Shown: one piece after another, positions 42,698-54,418 of the stretch
Layout of the letters: each line of letters begins with the position of its first letter
Position numbering within the stretch: the first letter of the stretch is position 1
IMG/VR virus record: IMGVR_UViG_3300033571_024432
Location: 1-64,000 of that record
Length of the DNA stretch: 64,000 nt
Direction: 5' to 3' (one strand)
Source: a virus
Program-made: the position numbers and the translations under genes
Notes under the pieces: generated by a model
What the model saw: only the letters and a program-made list of their open reading frames with translations
The model's database searches: none
Told to the model about the DNA's origin: nothing

Positions 42698-43405
42698 ATG
42701 GCCGCACCTAAAAAGAAAATAAGTCAGGATTTACAACCTGATCTAATCACTGATGACTTTACTAGTGATCTCATTAAATCTCTAAATAAAGAACGTGGTA
42801 TGCGTATTGCATACAATCTCTCATCAGATGAATCACCTACACATGTCAAACGTTGGATTAGCACAGGCTCAATTCAACTTGACTATATTATTTCAAATCG
42901 TAAAAATGGCGGTCTTCCAGAAGGTCGTATTATCGAAATCTTCGGTCCACCATCGATTGGTAAATCACATATAGCCTCTCAGATTGCTAAATCAACTCAA
43001 AGAGCAGGTGGTATTGTTGTTTATATTGATACAGAAAATGCTGTTAGTATTGAAAATCTTAAAACTTTAGGTGTCGATATCTCAAAGCGCTTTGTCTATG
43101 TCGATACACACTGCACAGAAGAAGTCTTTAGTATCGCTGAAAGTACTATCATGAAATCTAAAGCTATGCAAAAAGATGTTCCTGTAACAATTATCTGGGA
43201 CTCAGTTGCAGCAACATCACCTAAGGCTGAATTGGCAGGTGAATACGATAAAGATAGTATCGGTCTTCAAGCTCGAGCCATTTCAAAAGGTATGAGAAAA
43301 ATTACAGGTGTTATCGCTAATCAGAATATTCTCTTTGTCTGTCTTAATCAAGTACGAACAAAGATGGGTGTAATGTATGGCGATCCTTCAACAACTCCTG
43401 GAGGT
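42698..43405 (+). CDS. uvsX: UvsX/RecA-type recombinase, exon 1
   Basis: 236 codons up to the inferred 5' splice site. It contains the Walker A region FGPPSIGKSHIA, VVYIDTENA, Walker B-like VTIIWDSVAA and ICLNQVR-like FVCLNQVRTKMG, ending STTPGG. If read on, the frame hits a stop at 43433-43435 inside the intron. Joined to exon 2 it gives TTPGG-VAIPFHSSVRIKL, the normal UvsX/RecA continuation. The complete protein is about 405 residues; T4 UvsX has 391. It catalyses strand exchange in phage recombination-dependent replication. AAAAGGA precedes the start. Confidence 0.93.
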
Positions 43406-44497
43406 GAAAGCTACGCCCCCTATTCTAGAGTATAAATAGAAAATTAATTCCGTGAATTGCTGGAAACCCTTTAGAGTCTTTATTACTACAACATGATAAG
43501 TAATTGTGAGTGTGAAAGTTTGAAAAAATAAAGAATTAGGCAATCAGCAGCCAAGCATCCTGGTGACAGGTTGAAGGTTCAGAGACTAGTGTTAGTAACC
43601 TTTATCGATTTGTCATTATTTACCACAGAAAAACGAAGAAAGATAAAGAAGAAAAGACCTATGAGCGCGGAACAAAAATATAAATGCGAAATTTGTGGAA
43701 AATATTTCAAGTCAATTACAAATTCACATCTAAAGAAACATCAAATTACAACATATGAATACAAAGATATGTATCCTAATGTTGTTTTTGGAAATTTTGA
43801 AAGATTTAATAATTGGAGAGTGTCAGAAGAGAATAAACAAAATTGCATAAAAATGTCGCAAAAAGTTTATTCAAATGATGATATTAATTCAAGAAGAGTA
43901 CAATCAATCAAAAAAGTTACAAAAAGTCAAGAATATAAAAGTAGTCAATCCCAAAAAATGAAATTAGTTGCAAAAACAGAGAAAATGATTTCTTTTTACA
44001 ATGAAGCAAAAGAAAGAATTACACCTTGGATGAAAAAATCTAATTTCGAAAGATGGGAAATATTATACGGTTTAGAAGAAGCAAATAGACGTTTAGAGGA
44101 TTGGACAAAAAGGAATGTTTTACCTTCTAATTCAAGAAATACTAAACCTGAAATATTATTCATGAATATTTTAGACAATCTATGCTTATCATTTACTACG
44201 CAGAAAAGAGTTGGTAAATATATTTGCGACTTCTATCTTCCTGACTATAATTTGATTGTTGAAATCGATGGTAATTATTGGCATGCAAATCCCGAGATAT
44301 ATAAATCGACAGATATTATTGGACCAAAAAGATTTTCAGCCCAGAAAATATGGGAAAAAGACAATAATAAAAGTGCGTATATTCTTAATAAAAATTTTAA
44401 TTTGTTAAGATATTGGGAAAATGATATTAAAAATATTTCGTATGAAAAAGTTTTTGAAGATATAGTCCAAACATCTAAGAAATTAGATGAAGAAAAG
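43406..44497 (+). mobile_element. Group I intron in uvsX, with homing endonuclease frame
   Basis: A 1092-base intron. Core elements: P at 43455-43466 (AATTGCTGGAAA), Q at 43541-43555 (CAATCAGCAGCCAAG), R at 43577-43588 (GTTCAGAGACTA) and S at 44457-44468 (AAGATATAGTCC). TGCTG (43458-43462) pairs with CAGCA (43545-43549) as P4, and GACTA in R pairs with TAGTC in S as P7. The exon end GGAGGT pairs with GCCCCC (43414-43419) as P1, with a terminal U-G and one mismatch. The intron ends with G at 44497. The endonuclease frame lies between R and S, in P8. Exact splice sites are inferred from protein continuity. Confidence 0.88.
43661..44497 (+). CDS. Intron homing endonuclease, Vsr-like (EDxHD type), with N-terminal zinc finger
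   Basis: 279 codons from ATG 43661 to the intron end; no stop before exon 2. The N-terminus has a C2H2-like finger (CEICGKYFKSITNSHLKKH) followed by EYKDMYP, like MucR/Ros-type DNA-binding fingers in phage endonucleases. The C-terminal nuclease domain has YICDFYLPDYNLIVEIDGNY, WHAN and later LNKNFNLLRYWENDI, the Vsr/PD-(D/E)xK pattern. Upstream in-frame starts overlap the intron core and are unlikely. In unspliced RNA the product would run on into the UvsX C-terminus. Confidence 0.85.
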
Positions 44498-45007
44498 GTC
44501 GCAATTCCTTTCCACTCATCTGTAAGAATTAAATTAGGCGCAGGTAGCCCAATTGAAGGTGCAGATAAAGAACCTATTGGTATTAATGTATCAGCGAAAA
44601 TTATTAAAAATAAAGTATCAGCCCCATTTAGAAAAGCTGAATTTAGAATTATTTTTGGTAAAGGCATTTTTGAACATGAAGAAATTTTTGATACATTAAG
44701 AAAATTAGGTGAATTTGAATATAATGGTAAAAAAGTGTGTATTGATGGCAATGGTGCTTGGAAATCATTAGTAGTTACTACAATGACAGATGTTATTGAG
44801 ATAGAAAAAAAGTTTTATAAGTCTGATTTCGATAAAATCATGAATGATCCTTTATATAAGGAATACATTGATGTTGCAATTGAAAAAGCATATACAAAAT
44901 CGTCCAATGATATTTTAGTAGAAGATATTGATCAAGATTCTTATATTGAAAATGAAGCTGCAGCGATGGCTTTAGTAGAAAATGATTATTTAGCAGGTGA
45001 TGATTGA
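44498..45007 (+). CDS. uvsX: UvsX/RecA-type recombinase, exon 2
   Basis: 169 codons and a stop. It begins with VAIPFHSSVRIKLGAGSPIE, the second DNA-binding-loop region of UvsX, and continues through FRIIFGKGIFEHEEIFDTLR to an acidic C-terminus (MALVENDYLAGDD). It is in the same frame as the intron endonuclease, with no stop between. The stop TGA overlaps the ATG of the next gene by one base (TGATG). Confidence 0.92.
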   Translation, partial: VAIPFHSSVRIKLGAGSPIEGADKEPIGINVSAKIIKNKVSAPFRKAEFRIIFGKGIFEHEEIFDTLRKLGEFEYNGKKVCIDGNGAWKSLVVTTMTDVIEIEKKFYKSDFDKIMNDPLYKEYIDVAIEKAYTKSSNDILVEDIDQDSYIENEAAAMALVENDYLAGDD

Positions 45008-46087: not shown

Positions 46088-47467
46088 ATGAATATTACTG
46101 AAAAAAGTTTTTCGAAATACGGCAAATCATTTCAAGAGAAAGTATTTCAAAGTTTATTAAGCGATCGTATTTGGGCTGCGCAAATGATTGAGGTAATGGA
46201 TCCTAGTTATTTTGATATTAAATATTTATCATTTTTGTGTGAGAAATATTTTAAGTATTATGATAAATATAAATCTTTTCCTACTTTATCATTATTAGTA
46301 ACAATTGTAAAAGAAGAGTTTGAAAAAAATAACGATACTATTTTAAGAGATCAAATTATTGAATATTTGACTAGAATGAAAACAAATCCTGATTTAGGTG
46401 ATATTGAATATATCAAAGATAAATCATTGGAATTTTGTAAAAGACAAGTTTTTAAAGAGGCTCTAGAAAAAAGTGTGCAAATGATTCAAACAGAAAATTA
46501 TGATTCTGTTTTAGGTATCATGAAAGATGCTATTGCTGCAGGTTTACCATCATCTCAAGGACATGATTTCTTTGAAGATATTCAAGCAAGATTTGTAAAA
46601 GTCAATAGATTAGCTGTTCCTACAGGTTTAAAAAGACTTGATGATAAAGATTTATTACGAGGTGGTTTAGGTAGAGGAGAAATTGGTGTTCTTGCAGCAC
46701 CTACTGGTGTTGGTAAATCACATTTTTTGGTTGCAATGGGAGCTAATGCAATGCGTCATGGTAAAAATGTTATTCATTATACATTTGAATTAACAGAGAC
46801 TGATGTTGGTTTAAGATATGATTCAAACTTATGTGATATTCCTTCAAATGAAATTGTTGATAGAAAAGACGAAGTAATTGAAAAATATAATAACATGGAT
46901 TTAGGTAGACTTGTTATTAAAGAATATCCAACAGGAACAGCAACTGTTAATACTTTAAGAACGCATATTGAAAAACTATCGTTGAAAGGTTTTGTACCAA
47001 ATATTATTATTGTAGATTATGCTGATGTTATGAGATCTAGTCGTAAAATGGAAAGTTTAAGACATGAATTAAAATTAGTATATGAAGAATTAAGAAATCT
47101 TGCAATGGATTTAAATTTACCTATTTGGACAGCATCGCAAGCAAATAGAGACGCATCAAATTCAGATGTTGTAGGTCTTGAAAATATGTCTGAGGCTTAT
47201 GGTAAAGCAATGGTCGCCGATATTGTTTTATCTTTAAGCAGAAAACCTACAGAAAAAGCAACAGGGCAAGCAAGACTTTTTGTTGCTAAAAATAGAGCAG
47301 GTCGTGATGGTATTTTATTTCCAATATCAATTGATACAGCTAAATCTAAGTTTGCAATTTTAGATGATACAGAAATGACATTGAATGAAATAATGCAGCA
47401 AGACAAGACAGACATGAAAGAAATTTTAAAAAGAAAATGGAATGAAGTTCAAAATAAGGATGAATAA
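46088..47467 (+). CDS. Replicative DNA helicase, DnaB/gp41-type
   Basis: A 459-residue protein, the size of T4 gp41. N-terminal helical domain, then RecA-like core with Walker A (GVLAAPTGVGKSHFLVAMG), NVIHYTFELTE, Walker B (IIIVDYADVM), TASQANRDAS and the final FVAKNRAGRDGILFP arginine region. It drives the phage fork. The primase is not in this window. Four bases later comes the dUTPase gene. AACAGGAAAA precedes the ATG. Confidence 0.93.
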   Translation: MNITEKSFSKYGKSFQEKVFQSLLSDRIWAAQMIEVMDPSYFDIKYLSFLCEKYFKYYDKYKSFPTLSLLVTIVKEEFEKNNDTILRDQIIEYLTRMKTNPDLGDIEYIKDKSLEFCKRQVFKEALEKSVQMIQTENYDSVLGIMKDAIAAGLPSSQGHDFFEDIQARFVKVNRLAVPTGLKRLDDKDLLRGGLGRGEIGVLAAPTGVGKSHFLVAMGANAMRHGKNVIHYTFELTETDVGLRYDSNLCDIPSNEIVDRKDEVIEKYNNMDLGRLVIKEYPTGTATVNTLRTHIEKLSLKGFVPNIIIVDYADVMRSSRKMESLRHELKLVYEELRNLAMDLNLPIWTASQANRDASNSDVVGLENMSEAYGKAMVADIVLSLSRKPTEKATGQARLFVAKNRAGRDGILFPISIDTAKSKFAILDDTEMTLNEIMQQDKTDMKEILKRKWNEVQNKDE

Positions 47468-47470
47468 TAA

Positions 47471-47953
47471 ATGATTAAAGTATATACAACAGAAAAATTA
47501 AAAAAAGTTTTAAATGAAAAAAATATTCAAAATTATGTTCCTGCTTATGCTGGAGAAAGTGTAGGATTAGATTTATACGCAACACAAAAAGTACAATTTG
47601 ATCCAGCAACTTCATTATTAGGCGATAAAGGATCAACTATTCCAACTGGATTACATATTGCATTACCTAGATCATACGCAGGTTTAATTCTTGAAAGAGG
47701 TTCAATTACAAAAACACCTTTAAAAGTAAGGGCAGGTGTAGTTGATCCAGGATATACGGGTGAAATATTTGTAAATGCTGTAAACGTTTCAGATACTTCG
47801 TATTTAATTAAAGAAGGTGATAAATTACCTTTTCAAATTATTGTTGTAAAATGTGACAATGATTTTCAGGTAATTCAAGAAGAAGAATATTTAGAAATTA
47901 CTAAATCATCTTTGAGACAGAACGGACAAGTAGGAAGTTCTGATAAAAAATAA
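47471..47953 (+). CDS. dut: dUTPase
   Basis: A 160-residue trimeric-type dUTPase. Motif 1 ESVGLDLYAT, motif 2 LILERGSITK, motif 3 VRAGVVDPGYTGEIFVNAVN, motif 4 EGDKLPFQIIVVKC and a modified motif 5 LRQNGQVGSSD. It converts dUTP to dUMP, feeding ThyX and keeping uracil out of DNA. The C-terminal motif 5 is less glycine-rich than the usual RGxxGFGSTG. Confidence 0.9.
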   Translation: MIKVYTTEKLKKVLNEKNIQNYVPAYAGESVGLDLYATQKVQFDPATSLLGDKGSTIPTGLHIALPRSYAGLILERGSITKTPLKVRAGVVDPGYTGEIFVNAVNVSDTSYLIKEGDKLPFQIIVVKCDNDFQVIQEEEYLEITKSSLRQNGQVGSSDKK

Positions 47954-47972
47954 ATTTATATATTGAGGTTTT

Positions 47973-49115
47973 ATGAAATATAATGGTATAGAAATTGATG
48001 TTAATTATGATAATAATTTAAGTGAACAAGCATATTCATTACTTAAAGATTATTATATGTTAGAAGGTGAAACAACACCTCAAATGAGTTATGCTAGGGC
48101 TGCATTAGCTTTTTGTTATAATGATTTTGAATTAGCACAAAGAATTTATGAATATGCAGCTAAAAACTGGTTTATGTTTAGCTCTCCAATTTTGTCAAAC
48201 GCTAAAACGCAAGACGGGAAAAACTCAAAAGGTTTACCTATCAGTTGTTTTTTAAGTTATGTTGATGATTCATTAGAAGGTTTAATGGATCACTCTAATG
48301 AATTAAGATGGATGTCTGTTAAAGGCGGTGGCGTTGGAGGTCATTGGTCAGCAGTTAGAGCAAATAGCGAAATTTCTCCAGGACCTATACCTTTTTTAAA
48401 GACTGTTGATGCAGATATGACAGCTTATAGACAAGGAAAAACTCGTAAAGGCAGTTATGCTGCATATATTGATATTAGTCACCCTGATATTGTTGAATTT
48501 TTAAATATTAGAGTACCTACAGGCGGTGATAGTCATCGTAAATGTTTTAATCTTAATAATGCAATTAATATTACAGATGATTTTATGAATGCAGTATTGG
48601 AAAACCAAGATTGGAAATTAATTGATCCTAAAACAAAAAGCGTTAGAGATACTATTAATGCACGTGAATTATGGCAACGTATTTTAGAAGTCAGATTTAG
48701 AACAGGTGAACCATATCTTAATTTCATTGATGAAGCGAATAGAAAATTACCACAATATCAACAAGAAAAAGATTTAAAGATACATGGCAGCAATTTGTGT
48801 ATAACTGGAGATTCTTTATTAACAGTTATGATTGATAATCAAATCAAAGAAATGAATATTAAAGACGTTATTACAGAGTTTGAAGAAAATAAAGATATTT
48901 ATGTATTATCATATAATATTGATAAGAAAATAAATGAGTTTCAAAAAGTGTTAGAAGGTCAATTAATGTCAGAAAGTGCTGAATTGTTGGAAATCGAGGA
49001 TGATGAAACAGGATTTAAATTAATTTGTACACCTGAGCATTTGATTTTTACAAAAAACAGAGGCTACGTGATGGCTAAAGACCTTACAGAACAAGATGAA
49101 CTGTTAATAAAATAA
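47973..49115 (+). CDS. nrdA: Ribonucleotide reductase large subunit, N-terminal half fused to N-intein
   Basis: A 380-residue product. Residues 1-275 are the NrdA N-terminal part (PISCFLSYVDDSLEGLMDHS, SVKGGGVGGHWSAVRA, RKGSYAAYIDISHPDIVEFL) ending HGSNL. Residues 276-380 are an N-terminal split-intein half beginning with Cys. No ATP-cone is present, so dATP overall control is probably missing. The C-terminal half is at 49912, beyond a GIY-YIG gene. The class Ia partner NrdB is at 51765. The break falls exactly before the active-site Cys of SNLC. Confidence 0.93.
   Translation: MKYNGIEIDVNYDNNLSEQAYSLLKDYYMLEGETTPQMSYARAALAFCYNDFELAQRIYEYAAKNWFMFSSPILSNAKTQDGKNSKGLPISCFLSYVDDSLEGLMDHSNELRWMSVKGGGVGGHWSAVRANSEISPGPIPFLKTVDADMTAYRQGKTRKGSYAAYIDISHPDIVEFLNIRVPTGGDSHRKCFNLNNAINITDDFMNAVLENQDWKLIDPKTKSVRDTINARELWQRILEVRFRTGEPYLNFIDEANRKLPQYQQEKDLKIHGSNLCITGDSLLTVMIDNQIKEMNIKDVITEFEENKDIYVLSYNIDKKINEFQKVLEGQLMSESAELLEIEDDETGFKLICTPEHLIFTKNRGYVMAKDLTEQDELLIK
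48798..49112 (+). other. N-terminal half of a split intein (NrdA-2-like)
   Basis: 105 codons starting with the nucleophilic Cys in CITGDSLLTV (block A). Then IYVLSYNIDKK, ELLEIEDDETG and, at block B, ICTPEHLIFTKNRGYVMAKD, ending EDELLIK-like (EQDELLIK). By recall it resembles the published metagenomic NrdA-2 split intein closely. It should associate with the 34-residue C-half and splice the two NrdA parts in trans. Confidence 0.9.
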
Positions 49116-49160
49116 TGAAATTCACTCAGCCATAATTCTATATAAAAAAAAGGAAAACAA

Positions 49161-49922
49161 ATGAGTGAAAAATTTATTATTTATATTCATACTTTTAAAT
49201 CAACAAATAAATCATATATTGGTTATACATCATTAACTATTGAAAAAAGATTGCATAAACATATATTAAATTGTAAAGCAGGTTTTGAATCAAAGTTTTA
49301 TAGGGCTATAAAAAAATATGGAGTATCTGATATTGAAAGTCATATTTTACATGAATGTAAAAGTAAAGAAGAAGCAAAAGAAAAAGAAATCGAAATGATA
49401 AAAAATTTTGACACATTTGAAAATGGTCTAAATGAAACAATAGGCGGTGATGGAGGATGGATTGTTCCTGATGCTAAACTTGAAAGATGGAAGAAAACAA
49501 AAAGTGAAAGAATGTTAGGAGAGAGAAATCCGACATATTCAGGTGTAAAGGATATTGAAATTTTAGAAAAAGCATATGATTATTTTCTTAAGACAAATCA
49601 TATGCCGATTCGAAAATGGCAAATGTTTAGTAGCAAAGAATATAATTTTCCTAAGTCATATTCAAAATTTAGATTTAGAGAATATGGCTCAGGTTTAAAA
49701 GGTTTTAAAAATGCGATGAAAGAAATATATTCTCTAAATGATAATGATTTCAAATATGTCATAACCCAAGAACATATATCAAAGTTATCCAATTCAAAAA
49801 ATGGAAAGCATTGGTATATTAATATACATACGCAACAAAGAAGACAGTGTTTTGAGAAAGACATTGATAGAAAAGATTGGTTAACAGCCAATGAGATTAA
49901 AGGATTAAAAAATGGCAATTAA
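49161..49922 (+). CDS. Free-standing GIY-YIG homing endonuclease within split nrdA
   Basis: A 253-residue protein. GIY-YIG core FIIYIHTFKSTNKSYIGYTS, EKRLHKH with the conserved Arg, FYRAIKKYG and a Glu-rich helix ending ETIGGDGGW. The C-terminal part has NUMOD-like DNA-binding features (RNPTYSG, then a region of basic helices with SKLSNSKNGKHWY). It lies between the two halves of nrdA and overlaps the start of the second half by 11 bases. Inference: a homing enzyme that spreads the fractured nrdA allele. AAAGGAAAAC precedes the ATG. Confidence 0.88.
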   Translation: MSEKFIIYIHTFKSTNKSYIGYTSLTIEKRLHKHILNCKAGFESKFYRAIKKYGVSDIESHILHECKSKEEAKEKEIEMIKNFDTFENGLNETIGGDGGWIVPDAKLERWKKTKSERMLGERNPTYSGVKDIEILEKAYDYFLKTNHMPIRKWQMFSSKEYNFPKSYSKFRFREYGSGLKGFKNAMKEIYSLNDNDFKYVITQEHISKLSNSKNGKHWYINIHTQQRRQCFEKDIDRKDWLTANEIKGLKNGN

Positions 49923-50013
49923 AATAAAGAAAATTGAAAATACACAAGCTGTATACGATATTAAAGTAGAAAATAATCAAAATTTCTTTGCAAATAATAT
50001 GTTAATTCATAAT
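49912..50013 (+). other. C-terminal half of a split intein
   Basis: 34 codons from ATG 49912, ending VYDIKVENNQNFFANNMLIH and then N; the next codon is Cys (50014-50016). This is the block F/G pattern (VYDI, FFANN, HN-C) of C-inteins. Together with the 105-residue N-half it makes a compact mini-intein. Confidence 0.92.
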
Positions 50014-50973
50014 TGCAACGAGATTCATCTCGCAACTAACAAAGATCGAAGTGCAGTTTGTTGTTTATCATCATTAAACTTAGAAAAATTTGAAGAATGG
50101 AAAAATACAACAATCGTCGAAGATTGCATCACTTTTTTAGACAACGTACTTCAATATTTCATTGATAATGCTACAGATATAGGATTAAAAAAGGCTCGTT
50201 TTAGCGCAATTCAAGAAAGATCTTTAGGATTAGGTGCAATGGGTTTTCATGCTTATTTACAATCAAAAAATATACCATGGGAAAGTGCATTAGCTAAATC
50301 TCAAAATATGAAAATTTTCACATTAATTAAAGAAAGAGCATTTTCACAGACAAAAAAGCTTGCAAAAGAAAGAGGAGAGGCCCCTGATGCTATTGGTTAT
50401 GGCGTCAGAAATGCTCATCTTTTAGCTATAGCCCCTAATGCAAATAGTTCTATTATCGCAGGTACTTCTCCGTCAATAGAACCATATAAAAGTAATGCAT
50501 ATACACATCGTACTCGAGCAGGAGCTCATTTAGTTAAAAATCGTTATTTAGAAAATATACTAAATGAAAAATCTTTAAAAATTGAAGAAGAAAATAGACA
50601 AATTTGGTTAAATGAATTATGGACATCAATTATTACAAATGATGGATCAGTTCAGCATTTAGATTGTTTAAATGAATGGGAAAAAAATGTATTTAAAACA
50701 GCTTTTGAAATTGATCAAAGATGGTTAATTGATCATGCCGCTGATAGACAAGAATTTGTTTGTCAAGGACAAAGCGTAAATCTATTTTTTCCAGCAGGTA
50801 CAGATAAAGCAATTGTAAATGCTGTGCATTTAAGAGCATGGAAAAATAAATTAAAAGGTTTATATTATCTTCGTACAAATTCAGGTGCAAAAGCAGAAAA
50901 TGTCAGTGAAAAAGTCAGAAGTGATAAATTAAAAGACTTTAAAGATACTGATTGTTTAAGTTGTCAAGGATAA
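49912..50973 (+). CDS. nrdA: C-intein fused to ribonucleotide reductase large subunit, C-terminal half
   Basis: A 353-residue product: 34-residue C-intein plus 319 residues of NrdA beginning CNEIHLATNKDRSAVCCLSS. It contains the radical-relay and active-site region (AIAPNANSSIIAGTSPSIEP), LRAWKNKLKGLYYLRT with the conserved tyrosines, and the C-terminal redox pair CLSC. After trans-splicing the complete NrdA would have 594 residues, HGSNL-CNEIHL at the junction, restoring the active-site SNLC motif. Confidence 0.93.
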   Translation: MAIKIKKIENTQAVYDIKVENNQNFFANNMLIHNCNEIHLATNKDRSAVCCLSSLNLEKFEEWKNTTIVEDCITFLDNVLQYFIDNATDIGLKKARFSAIQERSLGLGAMGFHAYLQSKNIPWESALAKSQNMKIFTLIKERAFSQTKKLAKERGEAPDAIGYGVRNAHLLAIAPNANSSIIAGTSPSIEPYKSNAYTHRTRAGAHLVKNRYLENILNEKSLKIEEENRQIWLNELWTSIITNDGSVQHLDCLNEWEKNVFKTAFEIDQRWLIDHAADRQEFVCQGQSVNLFFPAGTDKAIVNAVHLRAWKNKLKGLYYLRTNSGAKAENVSEKVRSDKLKDFKDTDCLSCQG

Positions 50974-51005
50974 TATTATAATTTAAATTATTCAAAGGAT
51001 AATTT

Positions 51006-51650
51006 ATGTATCTTAATCTACCTTATACAAAAGTTTGGGTCAAACAAAGTTTTCTTCAAGGACCTGATAATTTTAAAACTGGACACGATCCTCATATGTT
51101 GGAGTCTTATTTAATTGGTGTGAGGGCAACACCTTATGAACCACCTTTATATGAGGTATATATACCAAAATATAACGCTTGTTATGACAAAGTTTTACAA
51201 AATGCAATTTTTGATAGAGATGAATCACCGCAAGAAGATATTTCCTTAACATATGTAGCGTGGTGGGATTGTATTTCAGATAATATTTTTTTATATCGCA
51301 AAAACCTCATGACAAATTGTCACGTGAGTATGCAGAATCGTCATAGTAAACATGTAGAAGGCCGATATTTATTTACTATAGATTTTAATAATCCTTATCA
51401 CCAGAGTGCTGTGCATATGGCTGAGAGTAAATTTTGGCAGGAACATAAATCAACGCATTATTTCTTTGATGAAAAAACAGGTGTATTATGTTGTGGCCCG
51501 AATAATAAGATGCGTTGGTTTCATAGTTCTTTAGGCACTAAAAATACTGAACGACCTCCTTTTCAGGTTTTTAATCCACCTGATCATTTTAGTCATGAAA
51601 TTAAAAAAAACATTGAATATTCAAATGAATTTGATTATCAAACAAAATAA
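51006..51650 (+). CDS. Unrecognised protein between nrdA and nrdB
   Basis: A 214-residue protein with CAAAGGA before the start. It is Trp/His/Tyr-rich, with several conserved-looking motifs (TKVWVKQSFLQG, YVAWWDCISDN, CCGPNNKMRWFHSSLG). It contains several cysteines and histidines but no recognisable metal site. Location between the two ribonucleotide reductase subunits suggests nucleotide metabolism or simple co-regulation. I do not recognise a family. Confidence 0.65.
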   Translation: MYLNLPYTKVWVKQSFLQGPDNFKTGHDPHMLESYLIGVRATPYEPPLYEVYIPKYNACYDKVLQNAIFDRDESPQEDISLTYVAWWDCISDNIFLYRKNLMTNCHVSMQNRHSKHVEGRYLFTIDFNNPYHQSAVHMAESKFWQEHKSTHYFFDEKTGVLCCGPNNKMRWFHSSLGTKNTERPPFQVFNPPDHFSHEIKKNIEYSNEFDYQTK

Positions 51651-51671
51651 AAAATCAGATAAAAAGTTATG

Positions 51672-51688
51672 CTAACATTTAGTGTTAG
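51672..51688 (+). terminator. Weak hairpin downstream of 51006-51650 gene
   Basis: CTAACA (51672-51677) pairs with TGTTAG (51683-51688) with a 5-base loop. It lacks a clear T run, so termination is uncertain. It is in the 115-base spacer before nrdB. Confidence 0.35.
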
Positions 51689-51764
51689 ATTATAATTGTA
51701 ATAATGTAATAGATCAAGTAAGATTTTATAATTAATAATATTAATAAAAAGTAAGAGAATAAAA

Positions 51765-52730
51765 ATGAGTTTAACAGAGAGTAATATTACATATAAGCCA
51801 TTTCAATATCCATGGGCAATGGAAATGGCTGAATCACATGAAAAGATTCATTGGGGAAGTTGGGAGGCAAAGTTACAGGAAGATGTTAATCAATGGAAAA
51901 GTGGTAAAATTTCACAATCTGAAAAAAATCATATTACACAAATTTTACGTCTTTTTACACAGTCTGATGTAGCAGTAGGCGGAAATTATTGTGATCTCTT
52001 TATACCTAAATTCAAGAATAACGAGATACGTTCTATGCTACTTTCTTTTGCAAACCGTGAAGGTACTCATCAACGTAGCTACGCCCTTCTAAATGATACG
52101 TTAGGTTTACCAGAAGAAGAGTATTCAGCTTTTTTATCATATCATCAATTAAAAGAAAAAATTGAATTTATGCAAAAAGCTGATGTTTCAACCAAAAAAG
52201 GCCTTGCATGTGCCTTGGCCCAATCAGCATGTAATGAAGGCATGTCACTTTTTAGCGCTTTTGTTATGTTATTAAATTATCAAAGATTTGGTAAGATGAA
52301 AGGTATGTGTGAGATTGTTGAATGGTCAATTAGAGACGAAACAATGCATGTGCAAGGTATGACGCAGCTATTTAGAGAATACGTAAAGGAAAATCCTAGA
52401 ATTGTAAATGATGAATTAAAGTCAGAAATTTATCGTATGTTTACAAATGCTGTTGATTTAGAAGATAAAGTGATTGATTTAGCTTATGATATGGGTGGGA
52501 CAGAAGGATTAACTTCTGATGAAGTGAAGGAATATATTAGGTATATTGCAGATAGAAGATTAATTCAATTAGGATTAAAACCTATTTTTAATATTAAAAC
52601 AAATCCATTATCTTGGTTGGACTGGATTATTAATGGAGATAGTTTTAAAAACTTTTTTGAGGGAGTTGTAACTGATTATAATGCTGATGGTATGTCTGGA
52701 AATACTTGGGGTTGGGATTTAATTAATTAA
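51765..52730 (+). CDS. nrdB: Ribonucleotide reductase small subunit (class Ia)
   Basis: A 321-residue protein with the full di-iron and radical set: D68, E99 and H102 in NREGTHQRSY, tyrosyl radical Y106, E158 in NEGMSLFSAF, and E192 and H195 in IRDETMH. Spacings (D-E 31, E-E 34) equal those of E. coli NrdB. It forms the radical-generating partner of the trans-spliced NrdA. It is placed two genes after nrdA's second half. GTAAGAGAAT precedes the start. Confidence 0.95.
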   Translation: MSLTESNITYKPFQYPWAMEMAESHEKIHWGSWEAKLQEDVNQWKSGKISQSEKNHITQILRLFTQSDVAVGGNYCDLFIPKFKNNEIRSMLLSFANREGTHQRSYALLNDTLGLPEEEYSAFLSYHQLKEKIEFMQKADVSTKKGLACALAQSACNEGMSLFSAFVMLLNYQRFGKMKGMCEIVEWSIRDETMHVQGMTQLFREYVKENPRIVNDELKSEIYRMFTNAVDLEDKVIDLAYDMGGTEGLTSDEVKEYIRYIADRRLIQLGLKPIFNIKTNPLSWLDWIINGDSFKNFFEGVVTDYNADGMSGNTWGWDLIN

Positions 52731-52777
52731 TAAAATATAAAAAAAATAAATATATATAATAAAAAACAGGTATTTTT

Positions 52778-54418
52778 ATGATATTAAATGAAAAAAAATT
52801 AAATGAAATAATAAAAAAAGTTTTAAAGGAATCTAGATTTATTTTTGGTGATTATAAAGACGATCAAGGAAATTCTACAGATTTAAAAGCTGTTAATATA
52901 TCAAAAAAGTTGGGGAAACAATCAAACCCGCATGAAAGATGGACAAATCAGGATGAAAGAGAACAAATAATTGATGAAGTATATTCATTGGCAGGTCCAG
53001 ATGTATTTATTTCTTTTGTTGATCCATTTGAAAAAGGTGCAGATGGTTATTTAGCATCGCCTGCATTTAGTTTAAACCCGAATGCTACTTTTAATACACC
53101 TCATGGTATATATGCTTATCCTTTTGATAAAAACGATGCACAAAGATTTATAGAGACAGGTTCACCTACACCTTCTCCATTTGCTACAGGACGTAAATAT
53201 TTTCATTTAATGAGAATTGATTTAGCAAATCCAAATATAATTGTTTTTAATAAAGATGGAACATGTAATAGAAATATTAGTAATCAAGAATACGAGGCAA
53301 ATATCGACGAAATGATTAGAATGCATTATTTGTTTTTTAAAGATGAAATAATGAATTGTGTAATGAAATATGATCGTGAATATTGGCCACGTGGTGTTAA
53401 TAAGCAAACAGATAAAAATAAAAATGTTAAAATTGTTATTGATGAATATTATTTTAAAGATTCTAAAAAAGAAGAATTACAGAAATTTTTGAATAGTTTA
53501 AGATCTTCAACTAGAAGCATGTATATTGATAATAATTATTATAGACTTTATAAAGCAGCATACCATTTATCAAAAAATAAATATATGGGTGATTCATCAT
53601 CAGATGTAAATATTGATGCCAACTTAAATGTTAAATTTTCAAAAACAAGAGAGGTAAATTCTGAATTTTTTACATTGTTATTGAATAGGATTGGTATAAA
53701 GTGTGTTATCGATAAAGGAACAGGGGCAATACACCCAAATGAGCCAAGTCAAGTACATATTTTAACATTAGCAGATGATTCTTCTTATTATGAATATCTA
53801 GGTACATATCATAATAATTTAACAGCATCAGATGAATTGTTTTATTATTTCTTAAAAAATAATTTATCTGTTAATAAAAAATTTATTGCAATTGATAAAG
53901 ATAAAAAAATATTTGTTTGTGATATTACAAATGCTGAGGCAAAATTGGTAACATCAGTAGAACAATATATGGTTGAACACCCTGAGGATTTTGGACATCA
54001 TAAAATTAATAATGATGTTGATGTTGATGTTGATGTTGAAAATGAATATTCTAATGATCCTGATGTTATTCCATTAATAGATGAATGGGATGATGAAGAT
54101 TATGAAGATTATATTGAAACTTTCGGAATAAAGCCTACAAGAATGACAAAAAATCTAGAAAAAAAGTTCAAAAAAGAAAATTATCAAGAATTATATACAT
54201 TTTTTACTACAGAATTAGGATATCCACCAATTTTTATACCAGTCGATTGGAAAGAAATATCAAGCAAATTAAAAGTACCTTTATTGGTTTCTTTTGAGAA
54301 AAAAGTTAAAATATCTGCAATTTCAGGGTTAACATTTTTATTGAAAAAAATAGCTAAAAAATATTTTGGATATGAAAAAGTTTCGAACTCTTCTGATTCA
54401 AATGATGATGATTTTTAA
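52778..54418 (+). CDS. Leader-type protein of unknown family (possible ADP-ribosyltransferase-like)
   Basis: A 546-residue protein. Leader MILNEKKLNEIIKKVLKE before S19, followed by RFIFGDY, shared with the next gene. Core: GPDVFISFVDPFEKG, FSLNPNATFNTPHGIYAYPF, FHLMRIDLANPNIIVF, YRLYKAAYHLS and IKCVIDKGTGAIHPNEPSQV. The TP-GIYAYP and later EPxQ motifs recall ADP-ribosyltransferase folds, and T4 Alt is a packaged ADP-ribosyltransferase, but this is an analogy, not a proven homology. A (GATGTT)4 repeat gives a DVDVDVDV stretch. Paralogue next door and a fragment at window start. Confidence 0.55.
   Translation: MILNEKKLNEIIKKVLKESRFIFGDYKDDQGNSTDLKAVNISKKLGKQSNPHERWTNQDEREQIIDEVYSLAGPDVFISFVDPFEKGADGYLASPAFSLNPNATFNTPHGIYAYPFDKNDAQRFIETGSPTPSPFATGRKYFHLMRIDLANPNIIVFNKDGTCNRNISNQEYEANIDEMIRMHYLFFKDEIMNCVMKYDREYWPRGVNKQTDKNKNVKIVIDEYYFKDSKKEELQKFLNSLRSSTRSMYIDNNYYRLYKAAYHLSKNKYMGDSSSDVNIDANLNVKFSKTREVNSEFFTLLLNRIGIKCVIDKGTGAIHPNEPSQVHILTLADDSSYYEYLGTYHNNLTASDELFYYFLKNNLSVNKKFIAIDKDKKIFVCDITNAEAKLVTSVEQYMVEHPEDFGHHKINNDVDVDVDVENEYSNDPDVIPLIDEWDDEDYEDYIETFGIKPTRMTKNLEKKFKKENYQELYTFFTTELGYPPIFIPVDWKEISSKLKVPLLVSFEKKVKISAISGLTFLLKKIAKKYFGYEKVSNSSDSNDDDF
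54014..54037 (+). repeat. (GATGTT)4 microsatellite within coding sequence
   Basis: Four perfect tandem copies of GATGTT encode alternating Asp and Val. The unit length is a multiple of three, so copy-number change would keep the frame. Confidence 0.9.

Follow-up and report, generated by a model that had tools for sequence, protein, structure and literature searches.

A fractured nrdA gene with a split intein and an intervening GIY-YIG gene, and natural alleles that point to homing

We analyzed a stretch of viral DNA of 64,000 nucleotides (positions 1 to 64,000 of IMG/VR record IMGVR_UViG_3300033571_024432, hereafter the window) in which nrdA, the gene for the large subunit of class I ribonucleotide reductase (RNR), is interrupted. 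The locus is confirmed to be a fractured nrdA with a split intein and a GIY-YIG nuclease gene between its halves. Judging from the sequences, positions 48798 to 50013 would be one mobile element, composed of a split class 1 intein and a GIY-YIG homing endonuclease, that splices in trans and homes into nrdA; we put the probability of this reading at roughly 85%. The locus is valuable mainly because relatives supply pairs of filled and empty alleles, that is, with and without the insert.

Anatomy of the interrupted nrdA

A preliminary description of this DNA had proposed that nrdA is encoded in two genes, the first ending in a 105-residue N-intein (IntN) that starts CITGD and the second starting with a 34-residue C-intein (IntC) that ends HN before a Cys, with a GIY-YIG gene in between. 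All of this held, and the lengths of both intein parts were exact. The first open reading frame (ORF; 47973-49115) has 380 codons, 275 for NrdA and 105 for IntN, and the second (49912-50973) has 353, which are the 34 of IntC and 319 for NrdA from the Cys onward. The two NrdA parts sum to 275+319 = 594 residues, the size anticipated for the ligated protein. The 1216-bp insert is in frame and lies directly before a TGY codon.

Both NrdA halves match the Pfam families Ribonuc_red_lgN/lgC (2e-11, 5e-46, 5e-58), both intein halves match Intein_splicing (4.5e-4; 5.2e-7), and the NCBIfam models intein_Nterm and intein_Cterm were placed at the two edges of the insert. The break had been assigned to SNL-C, and it is there that the halves meet on PRK09102 (604 residues), the N half covering residues 13-284 and the C half 283-604 with adjoining ends; seven relatives are uninterrupted at this point. 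We take the Cys of SNLC to be the thiyl-radical cysteine (E. coli C439). The splicing residues C1, CTPEH (block B TxxH), HN, and the +1 Cys are present in the window and its close relatives, while the intein of contig L027 ends in SN, not HN. The closest solved intein is the NrdJ-1 split intein (PDB 8ubs; E=6e-16 for IntN with phmmer). A chance match is excluded by the domain E-values together with the empty alleles.

Table 1. Features of the fractured nrdA locus, in window coordinates.
Feature	Position	Strand	Evidence
NrdA N-extein, class I RNR large subunit, 275 aa, ends ..KIHGSNL	47973..48797	+	PF00317/PF02867, PRK09102
IntN, 105 aa, CITGD..CTPEH..DELLIK	48798..49112, stop codon 49113-49115	+	PF14890, TIGR01445, NrdJ-1 match, alignment with relatives
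Predicted RNA hairpin over spacer and GIY-YIG start codon	49108..49185	+	-15.9 kcal/mol, z=-6.3
Putative GIY-YIG homing endonuclease gene, 253 aa	49161..49922	+	PF01541 8e-9, PHROG homing endonuclease, I-TevI 1mk0
IntC, 34 aa, MAIKIKKIENTQAVYDIKVENNQNFFANNMLIHN	49912..50013	+	PF14890, TIGR01443
NrdA C-extein, 319 aa, +1 residue Cys of SNLC	50014..50970, stop 50971-50973	+	PF02867, PRK09102, empty alleles L006-L012
nrdB, class I RNR small subunit	51765..52730	+	PF00268 6e-71

We rejected a chimera or an assembly split as the source of this arrangement because it recurs in 30 other contigs and in a sequenced phage isolate. We also considered and rejected a group I intron as the interruption, since positions 47400-52800 gave no Rfam match at E<=1. 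Within the record there is no other Intein_splicing (PF14890) match, and a second nrdA was not found in its 116.7 kb, which may be an incomplete genome.

The two polypeptides might also stay unspliced and associate into a two-chain reductase. There is a precedent: in Aeromonas phage Aeh1, nrdA is split by mobE, and a functional NrdA in unspliced pieces is published (as cited in PMC3653736 and PMC10448857). We consider this very improbable for the window, where the intein halves at both edges of the insert are conserved, retain every splicing residue, and show signs of purifying selection (see below), and where a C half left unspliced would have 34 additional residues right before the radical cysteine.

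The nuclease ORF overlaps the ORF of the second nrdA gene by 11 nt in the window and by 1-38 nt in most relatives, which suggests translational coupling. As the preliminary description had stated, nrdB is on the same contig, separated from nrdA by one gene of 214 residues. This gap is variable: in the window it holds the 214-residue PHROG 3704 gene (51006-51650), and in the related contig L004 (7166-10433) it holds a remnant of that gene plus three unrelated ORFs, two of which are duplicates of each other.

Empty alleles and signatures of transfer

A search for intein-free nrdA alleles in relatives, proposed earlier as a check, was carried out and did find them. In seven IMG/VR contigs of the same phage group (L006-L012), a single NrdA ORF runs through the insertion codon, with 82-88% protein identity to the window in the N-extein and 86-91% in the C-extein. 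These intein-less alleles at the same codon in close relatives are new here, and comparison with them reveals co-conversion signatures at the site.

We compared the divergence of insert and extein. Between the window and L004, synonymous divergence (dS) is 0.20 for IntN, 0.19 for the nuclease, and 0.06 for IntC, whereas the extein halves have values of 1.07 and 0.99; nucleotide identity is 95.8% in the insert and 83% in the extein. Likewise, in the marine pairs L023/L024, L023/L088, and L024/L089 the insert has a dS of 0.17-0.54 versus 1.1-2.0 for the extein. Insert and extein have different histories.

The distribution of mismatches also changes at the insertion. In the window and L004, the closest flanks share the history of the insert: the two differ at 4 positions in the 95 bp from -60 to +35, versus 299 in 1687 bp elsewhere, and among the empty alleles the insertion flanks are not more conserved than elsewhere (0.75-0.76). 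The reverse pattern is seen between a filled and an empty allele, L003 and L011: there are 32 mismatches from -100 to +30 versus 24 in 1244 bp elsewhere, so that 32 of the 56 nrdA mismatches fall next to the insertion. Downstream, the two contigs are 99.4% identical over 536 aligned bp, with zero mismatches from +30 to +548, and upstream they are 98.1% identical over 2.6 kb, tract included. L003 and L011 are nearly the same phage, and L002, a near copy of L003, shares its metagenome with L011 by contig name. Because the tract limits in both tests were picked after the mismatch positions had been seen, the associated P values (2e-4 for window and L004; 3e-20 for L003 and L011) are descriptive. 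A short conversion tract centered on the site is a trace of homing by double-strand-break repair (PMC2988022). These apparent signatures of homing in natural alleles, dS discordance and clustered mismatches, are new here.

A split intein that does splice in trans could nonetheless be inherited vertically and no longer home, with ordinary phage recombination responsible for the differences at the site. Phage recombination is frequent, the L003/L011 data fit transfer in either direction, and the nucleases of two related loci have eroded (L031 and L113, see below). However, the insert dS is several-fold below the extein dS in several independent pairs, the mismatches are centered on the insertion site, and the nuclease shows purifying selection. 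Moreover, the presence of the insert is patchy on the extein tree, where well-supported branches force at least 6 changes. We therefore regard loss of homing as unlikely.

Several observations weigh against homing as the explanation of these patterns. The tract of L011 is atypical for its clade, with a mean identity to the others of 0.71 versus 0.78 for L003, and it is possible that L011 lost the insert by conversion from a divergent empty donor. Gain by L003 is possible too, and we favor it over loss only because the nuclease gives gain a drive. The same pair has a second mismatch cluster, at -418 to -277, for which we have no explanation, and no filled phage among those sampled matches the L003 tract as a donor. 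In addition, the marine pairs share the insert, yet their nearest flanks show no raised identity, and the transfers would therefore be older or the tracts shorter. Lastly, L011 is a single contig, and the contigs are metagenomic; a DNA-pattern search for further alleles of the L003/L011 species returned no new contigs.

Distribution and origin of the nuclease

We scanned IMG/VR with alignments of the nuclease, without selecting for genomic context, and retrieved members down to ~27% identity. These were ranked with a subfamily hidden Markov model (HMM), which was built from intein-borne members, a caveat on its E-value tiers: the top tier (E<=6e-53) comprises 30 other IMG/VR contigs and the Klebsiella jumbo phage KP13-7, in all of which the gene lies between IntN and IntC in nrdA, and the next tier (E 1e-43 to 2e-47; L114-L119) comprises genes directly 3' of nrdA without an intein. 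SNLC is uninterrupted in L115-L118, the four next-tier contigs that hold the site. Weaker matches sit elsewhere, except for the nrdA intein loci L113 and L031. In these two, the nuclease has lost most of its length and the intein halves are kept, a form of decay that fits a homing cycle. When we scanned bacterial genomes with the nuclease, only four weak partial matches were found, in gut Clostridia and relatives. The confinement of the IntN/GIY-YIG/IntC module to nrdA across the contigs and KP13-7 is new here.

In a phylogenetic tree, the intein-borne nucleases group with the free-standing nucleases linked to nrdA (86/85), to the exclusion of other GIY-YIG proteins. Monophyly of the intein-borne nucleases apart from the free-standing ones was neither rejected nor demonstrated, with a p-AU (approximately unbiased test) of 0.23, and a co-phylogeny of intein and nuclease left most deep nodes without resolution. 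The nearest non-intein relatives of the nuclease are free-standing genes just 3' of an intact nrdA, which is also new here.

This kinship raises the alternative that an unrelated, free-standing nuclease gene lies between the halves by chance and has its target elsewhere, as in intronless homing, and free-standing phage endonucleases do cut at distances of hundreds of bp or more (PMC2988022). However, the subfamily is confined to this split intein in ~30 contigs, and the conversion tracts are centered on the insertion, as a nearby cut predicts. Most loci carry the insertion before the Cys codon; in L029, L108, and KP13-7 (L020) it is shifted downstream by one codon, with the nuclease type unchanged. 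Taken together, these data make an unrelated nuclease quite unlikely.

In KP13-7 (L020 1656-7186), nrdA is broken into four pieces. The first is followed by an HNH gene; next comes the split intein with the GIY-YIG gene, and then a second split intein with another probable nuclease ORF. The window encodes a second, short GIY-YIG protein at 1668-1925 (85 residues, Pfam 77 bits), outside the nrdA element.

Maintenance and structure of nuclease and intein

The ratio of nonsynonymous to synonymous divergence (dN/dS) is mostly 0.03-0.25 for IntN, IntC, and the nuclease in pairs with measurable dS, which indicates that all three are under purifying selection. Against the PDB, the nuclease profile matched I-TevI (1mk0, E=5e-9), and 20 sequences all share R30, E76, and N91, the residues that align with I-TevI R27, E75, and N90. 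An AlphaFold model of the nuclease (predicted local distance difference test, pLDDT, 86; predicted template modeling score, pTM, 0.45) matched only the I-TevI catalytic domain in Foldseek, with a TM(target) of 0.84. The C-terminal ~150 residues of the model had no structural match in Foldseek and are presumably the DNA-binding part.

A hairpin and a late-promoter motif upstream of the nuclease

The predicted hairpin in the spacer between IntN and the nuclease gene covers the nuclease start codon in the window (z -6.3) and in L004 (z -6.5); the loop of the window hairpin contains TATATAAA at 49139. A hairpin of z<=-4 over the spacer or the start region was likewise predicted for L020, L027, L028, L030, L098, L100, L103, and L108, in some of them with the stem in the spacer, not over the start codon; in L003 and the NrdA-2-like group the hairpin is weak or absent. 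The T4 late-promoter motif TATAAATA occurs in 5 of 17 distinct spacers versus 0.44 expected from shuffles (0/2000 shuffles). Because the window spacer holds only the imperfect TATATAAA, not the full motif, we suggest a late promoter for the family, and for the window it is a guess. T4 delays I-TevI by means of a hairpin and a late promoter (PMC2988022). The spacer hairpins, several with the T4 late-promoter motif, recall this control, an observation that is new here, and the hairpin over the start codon probably keeps nuclease translation low.

A model for the element

We envision a naturally split class 1 intein and a free-standing GIY-YIG nuclease that became inserted before the radical cysteine codon. 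NrdA-N-IntN and IntC-NrdA-C would be made separately, and the intein halves would bind each other and splice in trans to give the 594-residue NrdA, so that the phage, having an intact NrdA, would tolerate the element. The nuclease would cut the intein-less nrdA of a co-infecting relative at or near the SNLC codons, and repair from the filled copy would transfer the IntN-nuclease-IntC block with short flanks of nrdA. With their target interrupted by the insertion, filled alleles should be immune. The hairpin at the start codon would limit translation of the nuclease. The sequences show the anatomy, the empty alleles, the restriction of the nuclease subfamily to one site, the discordance of insert and extein, the conversion tracts, and the retained catalytic residues; that the intein splices and the nuclease cuts, where exactly it cuts, which way the element was transferred, and how it is regulated are the parts of this model that we infer. 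A fuller scenario adds that the block homes as a unit with co-conversion of its flanks, that the nuclease derived from or gave rise to the free-standing, nrdA-linked GIY-YIG genes by collaborative homing, and that a hairpin and a late promoter restrain its expression as for I-TevI; we lean toward this full combination, at somewhat better than even odds.

Other interrupted genes in the window and in related phages

At 42698-45007 of the window, uvsX is broken by a 1093-bp insert (43405-44497). Part of it matches the group I intron core model RF00028 at 39.9 bits (E=6e-9), which is under the gathering score, and it holds an ORF for a Vsr/DUF559-like endonuclease that continues in frame into exon 2. 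The insert is missing from L004, L007, L010, and L011; at least the part with the nuclease is present in L006. Exon 1 has 97% identity to L004 versus ~82% elsewhere.

A UvsW-like phage helicase gene has a contiguous mini-intein without a nuclease in L069-L073, L075, and L076, and in L068 (1-2258) a Vsr-like nuclease gene (511-1374) divides the same intein between two ORFs. Comparing L068 with L069-L076 directly shows a mini-intein side by side with its fractured form. In L160 (2675-5620), a split intein breaks the gene for the terminase large subunit in two, and the GIY-YIG gene that separates its halves is a different one. In Vibrio phage K469 (L083 1-1962), the N part of the terminase is followed in frame by an intein-like start (GDSTILL) and a GIY-YIG domain, all in one ORF annotated as terminase.

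Comparison with known systems

Fractured genes with split inteins were described from Global Ocean Sampling data (Dassa et al. 2009), with seven nrdA cases by the count in PMC3653736. They resemble the present locus in that a split intein breaks the gene, a nuclease ORF separates the intein halves, and phage nucleotide-metabolism genes are affected, nrdA included. Here, by contrast, the nuclease is of the GIY-YIG type, and the comparison covers close relatives with filled and with empty alleles. Half of the loci in that survey are said to have Vsr-like nucleases.

In AceL NrdHF, an RNR gene on a phage-like contig is likewise fractured by a split intein with a putative GIY-YIG gene between the halves (PMC7891396). 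That intein, however, is of class 3 (Ala1) and lies in the beta subunit gene nrdHF, whereas the one studied here is of class 1 (Cys1) and interrupts the alpha subunit at its radical cysteine. PolB of phage MIJ3 has a split intein with an HNH nuclease (PMC6892783). Because of these three precedents, the kind of locus is already known. The GIY-YIG type that the preliminary description emphasized is indeed present, but it is less new than was implied, given AceL NrdHF and the already published NrdA-2 split intein (PMC7090010). In the literature we searched, which did not include Dassa et al. 2009, we found no evidence from natural alleles for homing of a split-intein block as a unit.

The intein of the window is a diverged relative of NrdA-2 and the inteins of L023-L026. 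NrdA-2 itself is close in sequence to the inteins of these marine relatives. The NrdJ-1 split intein comes from nrdJ, not nrdA, and sits after, not before, the Cys. Few known protein-ligation tools are as fast as the split inteins of fractured phage genes.

The nrdA of Yersinia phage vB_YenM_TG1 (KP202158), a cultured T4-like phage, has a related split intein (34% identity in IntN) at the same SNL^C site. Its nuclease is HNH, not GIY-YIG, so that the nuclease appears to have been swapped at one intein site. The locus (L084 1708-5355) is annotated only as two nrdA genes.

I-TevI, encoded in the td group I intron of T4 (1mk0, 1ln0), is similar in the fold and residues of its catalytic domain, and also in flank co-conversion and in the hairpin and late promoter at the nuclease start (PMC2988022). 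The two differ in that I-TevI lies in an RNA intron, whereas the present nuclease lies in a protein intein and has a C-terminal domain without a structural match. To these systems the present locus adds a family of split inteins in nrdA with ~30 loci, among which the nuclease at one site has decayed or been swapped. It also adds natural alleles with and without the insert in what is nearly one phage (L002/L003 versus L011), with which homing, target site, and immunity are directly testable.

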